Virus record (IMG/VR): IMGVR_UViG_3300033997_000092
Span: 124,001 to 188,000 of that record
Direction: 5' to 3' (one strand)
Length of the DNA stretch: 64,000 nucleotides
Origin: a virus
The notes under the pieces are model-generated. The model made no database searches. It saw nothing but the letters and a program-made list of their open reading frames with translations, and was not told the origin of the DNA. Below are positions 12,440 through 16,570 of the stretch, one piece after another (positions within the stretch are counted from its first letter, which is position 1; the number at the start of each line of letters is the position of its first letter). The position numbers and the translations under genes are program-made.

Positions 12440-13399
12440 ATGGCTAAAGACAAAGTGAAAGAAAAGAAGAAAGCTAAGGCTGTTGACAAGAATGATGTCA
12501 AGTCAGGCAAGAAGCCAGGCAGGAGAGAACAGGCTGCCAGCTCCAAGAAGCTGATTAAGTCAAAAGGTCCTGAGTTTAAAAAGAACAACAAGACCGCCTC
12601 ACGCACTACTGATTTTACGGTAGATGATTTCAAAGAAGCTCCGTATAACCCGCGATATATCAGCCCTGTAGAATTGCAGCGCTTAGGTAAATCGATGACA
12701 ACATACGGTGACTTGAGCGGTATTGTTTTCAACAGGCACTCGGGTGTGACTATTTCTGGTCACCAGCGCTTGAAGCAAGTACGCTTGTATGAACACGGCA
12801 CTGTACTGAAAGATGTAAAAGATGACGGTTACGGTACTGTTGCTGAAGGTTACGTATGGTACAAAGGTCCTAACGGCAAAGTTCGCATTCCATTACGTGT
12901 AGTTGATTGGTCAGATAAGAAAGCTGAATTCGCAGCCAACATCGCAGCAAACGCACACGGTGGTTCGTTCGATAACAAACTGCTGGCTAACTTGGTTGAA
13001 GCAATTGAACCAGGTGACGGCGAGTTCGATATTGATTTACTTGGTATCGATCCTATTACAATCAAAACACTTCCTTATGAAGACAAGATCGGCGATGCTA
13101 ATAAAGAAACGTCTCCGTCAGGTTCCGGTCCATCGTTTGCAGAGTTCAACTCAGAAAGCTTCGACGGCGAGTTGGTACATGAATGTCCTCGTTGTAGTAT
13201 GCGCTTCAACGACAACGGTGAAGAAGTTGTCCGTAAAGGTTACTCTGAGCCTGAAGACGATGACGAAGAAGATGAAAAGCCTTCAAAGAAAAAGTCAAAG
13301 TCAAAGAAGGACAAAGACAAGCCTTTGAAGAAAGGCGCAAAAGAGCTTGCTGAGTTTTCTACTCCGGCTAAGAAAAAGCCCAAGAAGAAATCAAAATAA
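12440..13399 (+). CDS. ParB-like N-terminal domain protein of the modification cassette
   Basis: The 319-residue protein has a Lys-rich N-terminus (about 60 residues), then a ParB/sulfiredoxin-like domain: PYNPRYISPVELQRLGKSM, IVFNRHSGVTISGHQRLKQV and RIPLRVVDWSDKKAEFAANI. SGHQRL replaces the usual DGxHR box. This domain commonly precedes DNA methyltransferases in phages and may target or nick DNA. A CPRC pair near residue 247 may bind zinc. The C-terminus is a KSKSKKDKDK-type low-complexity tail. The methyltransferase starts 12 bp downstream, so the two are probably one unit. Enzymatic activity is not shown. Confidence 0.75.
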   Translation: MAKDKVKEKKKAKAVDKNDVKSGKKPGRREQAASSKKLIKSKGPEFKKNNKTASRTTDFTVDDFKEAPYNPRYISPVELQRLGKSMTTYGDLSGIVFNRHSGVTISGHQRLKQVRLYEHGTVLKDVKDDGYGTVAEGYVWYKGPNGKVRIPLRVVDWSDKKAEFAANIAANAHGGSFDNKLLANLVEAIEPGDGEFDIDLLGIDPITIKTLPYEDKIGDANKETSPSGSGPSFAEFNSESFDGELVHECPRCSMRFNDNGEEVVRKGYSEPEDDDEEDEKPSKKKSKSKKDKDKPLKKGAKELAEFSTPAKKKPKKKSK

Positions 13400-13411
13400 A
13401 AGGAACGATTC

Positions 13412-14479
13412 ATGGCCAAAACAAAAAAGGCTGAAAAAGAATCGGCAGCAATGCGTATCAGTAGGCTGGTACCATTCGCTGTCCCTTCTATTAAGAAAAT
13501 CAACAAACATCCTAAACGCTATAAGTCCATAAGCTTGTTCGCTGGCTGTGGTGGCAGTAGTACGGGAATGAAGATGGCTGGATTTGATGTAATCTATGCC
13601 AATGAGTTTGTTGATATTGCCGCCGATACTTATGCTGCCAATGCTACATCACATACAAAAGTTGATCGCACAGACATTCGTAAAATCAAGTTCACTTCCC
13701 TTATGCGTGAACTTGGACTTAAAGAAGGCGAACTTGATCATATGGACGGTTCTCCTCCTTGCTCTAGTTTTAGTACAGCAGGTAAGCGTGAAGAAGATTG
13801 GGGTAAAGAGAAAGCCTACTCCGAAGATAAAGTCCAACGTACGGATGACCTGTTCCATGAATTCTGCCGCGCGCTACGTGCGTTTAAGCCAAAGACTTTT
13901 GATGCAGAGAATGTTTCTGGTCTTGTGAAGGGCATGGCTAAAGGTTACTTCCGTGAGATTGCTAAGCACCTTGAAGATTGTGGTTATGTTGTTGCTGCAC
14001 AGCTTCTTGATGCTAGTTGGCTCGGTGTTCCGCAGGCCCGTCAACGTATTGTGTTTGTTGGTGTCCGCAAAGACCTTGCAAAGAAGTACGGCTTCAAGCC
14101 TGTGTTTCCTAAACCTCTGTATCGTCAGGTTACTGTTCGTGAGTGTTTGCCTGACATAGCACGTATCAAAACGAAAGTACAGAGCGTTATCAAGTACGTT
14201 GATAGTAACAGGCCTAACAGTACGATTACAGCCAGTGATAGTTTAACTAGCCCGACAGCTAAATTCAGTGACGGTGGCTACATTGAAACATTTGACGGCG
14301 AACAACGCAAGTACAACATAGATGAACTGCGCGTCATCTGTGGGTTCCCTAGCGATTTCAAATTGTTAGGAACCTATGAACAACAATTTGAACGTCTTGG
14401 TCGTAGTCATGTGCCTGTGCAGATGTATTGGGTATGTAAAACTATTGCCGATGAAATTCTCGATAAGATTAAGGATTAG
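13412..14479 (+). CDS. C5-cytosine DNA methyltransferase homologue with altered motif X
   Basis: The 355-residue protein carries the ordered motifs of C5-cytosine methyltransferases: motif I SLFAGCGGSSTG (41-52), motif IV GSPPCSSFSTAG with catalytic C117, motif VI ENV (166-168), motif VIII QARQR (208-212) and LRVICGFPSDF near 306-316. Motif X, normally GNxVP, reads GRSHVPV (330-336). The cofactor-contacting Asn is missing: Arg331 follows the Gly, or Ser332 takes its place if VPV is aligned. Engineered C5-methyltransferases with Lys or Arg at this Asn are reported (from memory) to accept carboxy-SAM. Because a CmoA homologue follows 2 bp later, the enzyme may transfer a carboxymethyl group to cytosine. 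Target sequence unknown. Confidence 0.9.
   Translation: MAKTKKAEKESAAMRISRLVPFAVPSIKKINKHPKRYKSISLFAGCGGSSTGMKMAGFDVIYANEFVDIAADTYAANATSHTKVDRTDIRKIKFTSLMRELGLKEGELDHMDGSPPCSSFSTAGKREEDWGKEKAYSEDKVQRTDDLFHEFCRALRAFKPKTFDAENVSGLVKGMAKGYFREIAKHLEDCGYVVAAQLLDASWLGVPQARQRIVFVGVRKDLAKKYGFKPVFPKPLYRQVTVRECLPDIARIKTKVQSVIKYVDSNRPNSTITASDSLTSPTAKFSDGGYIETFDGEQRKYNIDELRVICGFPSDFKLLGTYEQQFERLGRSHVPVQMYWVCKTIADEILDKIKD
14399..14419 (+). other. Variant motif X of the C5-methyltransferase
   Basis: These codons encode GRSHVPV, residues 330-336. The canonical Asn of GNxVP is absent, with Arg or Ser in its place depending on where one aligns the extra residue. The change is at the SAM carboxypropyl/sulfonium side of the pocket, which is why it matters for cofactor choice. 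Confidence 0.8.
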
Positions 14480-14481
14480 TT

Positions 14482-15258
14482 ATGTCTGAGAGTGGAGATA
14501 ACCACGTAGCCGATGATGGTGCTAAATGGTCCTTTGACGAAAAGGTAACTGCTTCGTTTGACGCTATGCTAGCCGACAGCATTCCAAGCTACGAAACTAT
14601 GCGTAACCTGTGTTTCGAGCTTGGTAAAAACTTTGTCCACAAAGGCAGCCTTATTGTTGACTTGGGCGCCAGTCGCGGTCAGAGTATACAGCGCTTTGTA
14701 GATCATTTCGATTCTATTTACGCGCCGACTGCCTTTGATGTTACTGGTCTTTCATCTGATGGTGTACAGCACGTACTCTTTGAGATTAGTCCTCCTATGA
14801 TGGACGTACTCAAAGATAAATTTTCATTGGCACCAAATATAATGTTGTGTCCAAACGACATTACTGTCCGTGGAAACATCAGTGCTGTGTGCAAGCCAAA
14901 AGCAGCCAGTTTGATTATGAGTATTCTGACAATTCAGTTTACTCCGATTGAGTACCGATTGCAGATCATCGATGAAATCTATCAGAGCTTAGAGCCTGGC
15001 GGTGCTTTTATTTTTGTTGAGAAAGTAATAGGCAATTCAGCACACATTGACCGACTCATGGTAAAAGAATACCTGGCACTAAAAGCCGATCACGGTTACA
15101 CTCAAGAGCAAATCAACAAGAAACGCAAAGCTCTTGAAGGTGTTCTCGTTCCTGTAACCGCCAAGTTTAACGAAGAAATGTTGCGTGATAGTGGATTCCG
15201 TTCTGTTGACTGTTTCTATCGTCACTTAAACTTTGCTGGCTGGATAGCTATCAAATGA
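14482..15258 (+). CDS. CmoA-like carboxy-S-adenosylmethionine synthase
   Basis: The 258-residue protein resembles E. coli CmoA along its whole length: WSFDEKVTASFDAMLADSIPSYE (16-38), motif I IVDLGASRG (58-66), FEISPPMM (100-107), LTIQFTPIEYRLQIIDEIYQ then LEPGGAFIFVEK (149-181), HGYTQEQINKKRKALEGV (204-221) and a final RHLNFAGWIAIK. CmoA converts SAM and prephenate to carboxy-SAM. The KKR at 213-215 aligns with the E. coli segment holding the Arg that contacts the added carboxylate. In bacteria CmoA serves tRNA cmo5U through CmoB; no CmoB is present here. Position between a C5-methyltransferase and an amide-forming enzyme points to DNA instead. Confidence 0.87.
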   Translation: MSESGDNHVADDGAKWSFDEKVTASFDAMLADSIPSYETMRNLCFELGKNFVHKGSLIVDLGASRGQSIQRFVDHFDSIYAPTAFDVTGLSSDGVQHVLFEISPPMMDVLKDKFSLAPNIMLCPNDITVRGNISAVCKPKAASLIMSILTIQFTPIEYRLQIIDEIYQSLEPGGAFIFVEKVIGNSAHIDRLMVKEYLALKADHGYTQEQINKKRKALEGVLVPVTAKFNEEMLRDSGFRSVDCFYRHLNFAGWIAIK

Positions 15259-16094
15259 AGAAAAAGAAACTTCCAAAAGTAAGGAAACTATTGGGAGAAG
15301 CATTGCAGCCACATCGTAAAAAGCGTTGTGGCGTTTTGCTTTCTGCTGGTGTGGATTCTCACAGTGTTTTACATGCCTGTTTGGATGTAGGCATACGACC
15401 ACTCGTAATAAGCTTTACTCGTCGTGATCACGAAAGCCGTGACTTCAAATCGGCACGTGAAGCTGCAACTCGTTTAGGATTGGATTTCTTTCCTGTCTAT
15501 CTTAAATCAGATCCAGAAGTTCTTGTACGTTATTTGCGCCATGCTGCAAAGCACGGTGTTCGTGGTAAAGCCGCTTTCGAGTGTCTATATCCGATGATGG
15601 CAACTGCCCGTAAGTTAAAACGTAAAGGCATAAAGATCGATTGTTTATTTTCCGGTTACGGTGCCGACGCCTTCTTTGCTTTGAGTAAGAAAGGATGTAT
15701 GCACTACCGTGACAAGATGGCTGAATACGCACTGGAAGCACATGCCCGATATGTCCGTAAAGGATCCCAGCTTGATATTCTCAAACGGTATTTCAAAGAT
15801 GTTGCCTGTGTCAAGTACAGTAGTCCGTGGTGTGCCGAATCTATCCGTGACAGCTTTACAAGACACACGTACTCACATGACGACTTAAACAAGCCAAAAC
15901 AAAAATGGCCTGTACGCAGAGACTTTGACAAAGAGTTCTCTGAGTCAAAAATTTTCAACCACACAAACTACCAGTTGGGTGATAGTGGTATTAGTGCAAT
16001 GTTCCTGCAGTTGCTCGATCACCGCATAAATAGCAAAAACTATAAATCAACTACTGGTATATACAACGACATTGTTCGGAGTCTCGATAAATGA
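15255..16094 (+). CDS. Asparagine-synthetase-like ATP-dependent amide synthetase (no glutaminase domain)
   Basis: The 279-residue protein has the PP-loop LLSAGVDSHSVL (S30-S35 as SxGxDS) and FSGYGADAFF (132-141), matching the SGxGADExF motif of AsnB-type enzymes. These adenylate a carboxylate and let an amine displace AMP. The N-terminal Ntn glutaminase domain of AsnB is absent, so the nitrogen donor would be free ammonia, another amine or a partner protein. A Lys-rich N-terminus could contact DNA. It overlaps the CmoA-like gene by ATGA and the next gene by ATGA. I infer that its substrate is the carboxymethyl group on cytosine. Another PP-loop reaction remains possible. Confidence 0.8.
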   Translation: MKKKKLPKVRKLLGEALQPHRKKRCGVLLSAGVDSHSVLHACLDVGIRPLVISFTRRDHESRDFKSAREAATRLGLDFFPVYLKSDPEVLVRYLRHAAKHGVRGKAAFECLYPMMATARKLKRKGIKIDCLFSGYGADAFFALSKKGCMHYRDKMAEYALEAHARYVRKGSQLDILKRYFKDVACVKYSSPWCAESIRDSFTRHTYSHDDLNKPKQKWPVRRDFDKEFSESKIFNHTNYQLGDSGISAMFLQLLDHRINSKNYKSTTGIYNDIVRSLDK

Positions 16095-16570
16095 ATCACC
16101 TGCATCACCTGTATAATCAAGTACGCAAAGCAATACTTGCCGAAGCTACAATGGATAAAGAAGATCGACTTCTCCATAGTTGGCAATTTTTAGTTCAACT
16201 GAAAGGCGTCAACTACGTTGTTGGTAAGACAGGCTACAATACTATGTTTTACCGTATAGGTGATAAGGGCGATACAGTTACTGGCTACCCAGATGATATA
16301 CTCAAAGTGATATTGTCTTGGACCAAGGAAAAATATACAGGCTACATTATTTATGATGGCACTGAAATACGCCGTAAGTCAAAAAGCATCGAAAGCTTAC
16401 TCGAACGTACTGCTAAAAAGGACTACGTCATATTTGGTGTTCGGCCAGATAATACATGGTCCGCTTTGTATGAGGCCAACAACAGCCTAAAAGGTTACCG
16501 TTGGGTAAAAGTTAAAGCACCTGCATCTGACGTTAAAGTTAAAAAGACAAAGTCCAAAACAAAGCACTAA
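16091..16570 (+). CDS. Hypothetical protein, 159 aa, coupled to the modification cassette
   Basis: It starts in the ATGA overlap with the amide synthetase. It is an alpha/beta protein with many aromatic residues (YNTMFYRIG, YTGYIIYDGTEI) and a basic tail (KVKVKKTKSKTKH region). No known family. The coupling makes a role in the same modification pathway possible, for example as a binding subunit or amine-donor partner, but nothing in the sequence shows this. Confidence 0.65.
   Translation: MNHLHHLYNQVRKAILAEATMDKEDRLLHSWQFLVQLKGVNYVVGKTGYNTMFYRIGDKGDTVTGYPDDILKVILSWTKEKYTGYIIYDGTEIRRKSKSIESLLERTAKKDYVIFGVRPDNTWSALYEANNSLKGYRWVKVKAPASDVKVKKTKSKTKH

Follow-up and report, generated by a model that had tools for sequence, protein, structure and literature searches.

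A predicted carboxy-SAM-dependent cytosine hypermodification cassette in a distant relative of jumbo phage PaBG

A five-gene cassette and its recurrence

The window analysed here, a stretch of 64 000 nucleotides, comprises bases 124001–188000 of a 261,032-bp IMG/VR virus record. Four complete open reading frames (ORFs) lie on its plus strand at 12440–16094, encoding ParB-like, C5-cytosine methyltransferase (C5-MTase), CmoA-like and asparagine-synthetase (AsnB)-like proteins (table 1). Gaps of 12 bp and 2 bp separate ParB-like from C5-MTase and C5-MTase from CmoA, respectively, while ATGA overlaps join CmoA to the ligase (15255–15258) and the ligase to a fifth ORF (16091–16094). An earlier note on this DNA had described the four genes, their strand, both gaps and two ATGA overlaps, all of which we confirmed, with the refinement that the partner in the second overlap is the ORF at 16091–16570, just beyond the range it covered. 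The four family identities it proposed also hold, on matches to phrog_620, PF00145, TIGR00740 (below the curated cut-off) and PF00733.

Table 1. Genes of the cassette (window coordinates) and loci of a second CmoA-linked module (locus coordinates).
Feature	Length (aa)	Position	Strand	Match
ParB-like	319	12440..13399	+	phrog_620 ParB-like, E=5e-29
CmoX (predicted DNA cytosine C5-carboxymethyltransferase)	355	13412..14479	+	PF00145, E=7e-49; 8YF3
CmoA (predicted carboxy-SAM synthase)	258	14482..15258	+	TIGR00740, E=2.9e-35; 4GEK
CmoY-like ATP-dependent amide ligase (predicted)	279	15255..16094	+	PF00733, E=8e-11; S-B43 CmoY
Fifth cassette gene, phrog_23597, no assigned function	159	16091..16570	+	phrog_23597, E=2.6e-31
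Second CmoA-linked module		L044:5293-8723		
Second CmoA-linked module (Pseudomonas phage SM1)		L284:4190-10038		
Second CmoA-linked module (Aeromonas phage HJ05)		L285:91-6321		
Second CmoA-linked module (Gordonia phage Evaa)		L286:1-3952		

The earlier note had suggested searching phage genomes for the same four-gene order. The order ParB-CmoX-CmoA-AsnB-like recurs in Pseudomonas jumbo phage PaBG (locus L003) and in three further loci (L030, L110 and L111). The cassette proteins of these four loci have diverged strongly from those of the window (about 32–56% identity between window and PaBG), and the preservation of gene order despite this divergence argues that the arrangement is beyond chance. 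Several further window genes have homologues in PaBG and L030, and the phage is therefore a distant relative of PaBG (Baikalvirus). On these grounds and those set out below, we consider it highly likely from the sequence that the cassette is a phage DNA hypermodification set of the CmoA-CmoX-CmoY kind.

The ParB-like protein yielded no Pfam match. It is 50% identical to the PaBG ParB-like protein over 62% of its length, and the PaBG gene likewise adjoins CmoX; it is probably a DNA-binding or targeting partner of the cassette.

CmoX, CmoA and the carboxylate-binding arginine

The reference system is that of Synechococcus phage S-B43, in which 5-carboxymethylcytosine (5cxmC) was described as a natural base by Yang et al. 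(Nat Commun, 7 Dec 2025; PMC12783734). According to the main text of that paper, CmoA and the C5-MTase homologue CmoX make 5cxmC and the asparagine-synthetase-like CmoY adds glycine; each enzymatic step was demonstrated, the crystal structure of CmoX with carboxy-SAM was solved (8YF3) and 5gcxmdC was found in S-B43 phage DNA by LC-MS. The same text reports 5,615 candidate CmoX sequences, frequently with ParBc-domain neighbours to which it assigns no role, and states that no N6 or N4 candidates were found. Within the collection of papers searched, we found no second report of such a system in nature.

The window methyltransferase finds its best PDB match in S-B43 CmoX (8YF3, E=3.6e-57), while ordinary C5-MTases match at 1.5e-19, the next best value, or worse. 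It is 56% identical to its PaBG counterpart and 39% to S-B43 CmoX. In alignments it keeps C117 in the SPPC nucleophile motif and E166 in ENV, and R331 (ERLGRSHVP) corresponds to R350 of SpCmoX (ERVGRMVPP) and to the position of N304 in HhaI.

The window CmoA, which falls below the curated cut-off of TIGR00740, matches PDB 4GEK (E=4e-23) and is 42% identical to the PaBG protein and 31% to that of S-B43. Its R215 and E180 align with R199 and E164 of E. coli CmoA, whose roles are described in PMC3663124; Arg199 holds the carboxylate. As S-B43 CmoA appears from the alignment to have lysine at the Arg199 position, we regard Arg215 as supportive but not essential.

We then analysed the association of the CmoX arginine with CmoA. 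Among loci found with CmoX as the query, 77 of 80 contained CmoA. CmoX relatives were thinned at 90% identity to 84 sequences, and four Erwinia-type phages with CmoA elsewhere in the genome were scored as positive. CmoA accompanied 76 of the 77 Arg-type sequences; the sole exception (L157) is located close to the end of its contig. All seven non-Arg relatives (six Met, one Leu) lacked it. The Fisher value of 2e-9 is descriptive only, as the sequences are related. In the earlier note, a complete lack of co-occurrence between CmoA homologues and the methyltransferase variant would have counted against its reading, and the opposite was seen. The rule is not absolute, since in Staphylococcus phage vB-SscS-F1 (L007:5278-7796) CmoA and CmoY-like genes adjoin a C5-MTase without the carboxy-SAM arginine; this enzyme has Gly-Gly in its place, reads GSPC, and scores more weakly, under the score cut of the 84-sequence set. 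In viral_contigs, alignment-based scans recovered CmoA and CmoX, whereas single-protein scans gave 0 matches for CmoA and 1 for the ligase.

Two further observations concern relatives of these genes. CmoX of Erwinia and Yersinia jumbo phages is split by an intein of approximately 340 aa, identified by Hint/Intein_splicing matches (L024:3663-5771, L025:3666-5771, L026:3666-5744 and L027:5629-7758); its insertion point is exactly in front of the catalytic cysteine of SPPC, and the residue that follows it would thus serve as the CmoX nucleophile. A further set of loci has CmoA but no neighbouring C5-MTase; this second CmoA-linked module consists of a ParB gene, a fusion of a ParB domain with a class I methyltransferase-like domain (phrog_5475, roughly 510–530 aa) and CmoA (table 1). 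CmoA was present in 80 of 80 IMG/VR loci found with the fusion, which is a candidate user of carboxy-SAM by another chemistry. For the same 530 residues, the fusion gene measures 1,590 bp in L044, L216 and L218 but about 2,096 bp in a large number of other loci (L220-L224 among them), suggesting that the longer form carries an intron or intein of about 500 bp.

The ligase and the fifth gene

The window ligase consists of a single AsnB-type synthetase domain with the PP-loop SxGxDS retained. It is 29–31% identical to S-B43 CmoY over 90% of its length (E=4e-16) and 35% identical to the PaBG ligase. Its structure was modelled with AlphaFold2 at a pLDDT of 94, and a Foldseek search with this model yielded beta-lactam synthetase and asparagine synthetase B as the closest hits (E~1e-8). 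No glutaminase domain of the N-terminal Cys2 type (GATase_7) was detected in the ligase or in the whole record.

The ligases of CmoX loci form two classes, short (mostly 260–320 aa) and long (mostly 460–480 aa), which separate in a tree. S-B43 CmoY and the PaBG and window ligases belong to the short class, and the window protein groups with the CmoY-like members; an MCG glutaminase start was seen in many long-class ligases. C110, Q216, H236 and Q240 are hallmarks of the short class, being common to the window ligase and CmoY and missing from glutaminase-type ligases. At position 159, on the other hand, the window ligase and its nearest relative (L030) have alanine where nearly all others, short and long, CmoY included, have arginine, so the amine used or the activity could differ. 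The two classes should yield different bases.

Variation around the ligase was observed in other phages. In Erwinia phage pEa_SNUABM_23 (L006:1947-6825), CmoA is separated by three uncharacterised genes from a CmoY-like ligase that groups with S-B43 CmoY and not with other jumbo-phage ligases. A 2OG-Fe(II) oxygenase directly follows the CmoY-like ligase at L028:6044-6685, L008:6745-7392 and L010:7047-7685, the loci of Yoloswag, Y3 and Salmonella phage Sen-NF (assigned by PF13640 for L028 and by annotation for the others), and possibly performs an extra tailoring step. No PF13640 match to such an oxygenase, as found beside CmoY in Erwinia phages, was present in the record of the window, and a search for a Dam-family adenine methylase was also negative.

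The fifth gene is conserved with the cassette. In L030 the phrog_23597 homologue immediately follows the ligase gene, in PaBG, L110 and L111 it immediately precedes it, and Erwinia-type phages carry it close by. CmoA and CmoY were found within 8 kb in all 26 IMG/VR loci identified with phrog_23597. Among annotated phages the family is present in 53 records, only from genera that also have the ligase, as judged by comparing organism lists and not record by record. Since most carriers belong to one jumbo-phage lineage, shared descent explains part of this co-occurrence; its changing position beside the ligase nonetheless suggests a functional tie. The AlphaFold2 model (pLDDT 79.5) yielded no PDB match in a fold search, and the single significant viral match was its own PaBG homologue. 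The gene does not feature in the account given in the main text of PMC12783734.

Proposed pathway, alternatives and known systems

We propose that CmoA would convert SAM and host prephenate to carboxy-SAM, and that CmoX, directed by its own recognition domain and perhaps also by the ParB-like protein, would carboxymethylate phage DNA cytosines at C5, with C117 as the nucleophile and R331 holding the carboxylate of the carboxy-SAM donor. In the last step, 5-carboxymethylcytosine would be adenylated by the CmoY-like ligase and joined to an amine, for which glycine is the most likely candidate; the product would then be 5-glycylcarboxymethylcytosine (dC +115 Da as the nucleoside). Such a base would shield the phage genome from host restriction. 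Homology, key residues, operon structure, co-occurrence and the steps shown for the S-B43 homologues support the core of this reading strongly, and carboxy-SAM is very probably made and used on DNA cytosine by the window enzymes. Weighing against it are the modest identity to the characterised enzymes (39% for CmoX, about 31% for CmoA and CmoY), Ala159 of the ligase and the exception in Staphylococcus phage vB-SscS-F1. The activities in this particular phage, glycine as the amine, the site recognised and the roles of the ParB-like and fifth genes are inferred. The earlier note had put forward a new pathway of this type; its carboxymethylation core is strongly supported by homology and key residues, but its novelty is not, as the pathway has already been shown experimentally for the homologous enzymes of S-B43 (PMC12783734).

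The methyltransferase might instead be an ordinary SAM-dependent 5mC enzyme, with CmoA serving tRNA cmo5U modification. The gene does carry generic C5-MTase hallmarks (PF00145, E=7e-49) and could be annotated so, but it has the carboxylate-binding arginine, its closest solved structure is a CmoX, and wild-type SpCmoX, bearing the same arginine, did not accept SAM according to the main text of PMC12783734. The frequency of CmoA in CmoX-anchored loci also speaks against this combination, as does the lack of CmoB, which the earlier note had remarked on and which now extends to the 261-kb record (no TIGR00452 match anywhere). We consider it extremely improbable, and rejected it on the absence of CmoB and the presence of the arginine.

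The remaining alternatives keep the carboxymethylation core and differ in the amine. Our best prediction from the protein comparisons is that the ligase couples an amino acid to 5-carboxymethylcytosine, with glycine as the first candidate, and we lean towards glycine itself. Addition of free ammonia would give 5-carbamoylmethylcytosine (dC +57 Da), the plain amide that the earlier note expected as the final product. In favour of this, the ligase has an asparagine synthetase fold, and Yang et al. proposed ammonia-type ligases, glutaminase-bearing forms of which occur in other CmoX loci (PMC12783734); nevertheless, the lack of a glutaminase domain in the ligase or elsewhere in the record, together with its grouping among short CmoY-like ligases, whose sole characterised member uses glycine according to that paper, favours an amino-acid amide and leaves the plain amide unsupported. 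We think ammonia improbable, and rejected it as the best reading for want of a glutaminase. A different amino acid or small amine, which would add a new product to the 5cxmC-amide series, is rather unlikely too, though less so: Ala159 in the window/L030 pair and the distinct active-site residues of the ligase clusters described in the main text of PMC12783734 point that way, but most short-type hallmark residues are common to the window ligase and glycine-using CmoY. We would likewise give only a modest chance to a five-gene 5cxmC variant, in which a non-glycine amine is used and phrog_23597 acts in the modification as an accessory or tailoring factor so far unrecognised.

With the predicted cassette, a DNA hypermodification described only recently would reach a separate lineage of jumbo phages, one with ties to PaBG and to those of Erwinia. 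The prediction also applies to phages in culture, the DNA of which could be checked already. The analysis further adds a conserved fifth gene, sets two ligase classes apart, lends independent support to the published pathway and provides new leads.

Four known systems can be compared with the window. The bacterial CmoA/CmoB tRNA cmo5U pathway has in common with it a CmoA homologue making carboxy-SAM, but the window lacks CmoB and its acceptor enzyme is a DNA C5-MTase homologue. Glutaminase-bearing CmoX-linked ligases (Streptomyces phage TurkishDelight; the A0A7T0Q3R0 cluster of Yang et al.) likewise have an AsnB-like domain adjoining CmoX and CmoA, but are about 460–480 aa long with an N-terminal glutaminase domain and are probably ammonia users, whereas the window ligase is 279 aa without one. 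S-B43 resembles the window in having the three enzyme families side by side, the catalytic cysteine and carboxylate arginine in CmoX, a single-domain ligase and no CmoB, with ParBc neighbours reported for the family. It differs in gene order (CmoA-CmoY-CmoX versus ParB-CmoX-CmoA-CmoY-gene 5), in sequence (39% identity for CmoX and about 31% for CmoA and CmoY) and in the arginine that CmoY has in place of Ala159. In PaBG (PaBG_00176-00180), where the record annotation uses generic names only and phrog_23597 precedes the ligase instead of following it, ParB-like, CmoX, CmoA, phrog_23597 and AsnB-like genes lie together on one strand, as in the window.
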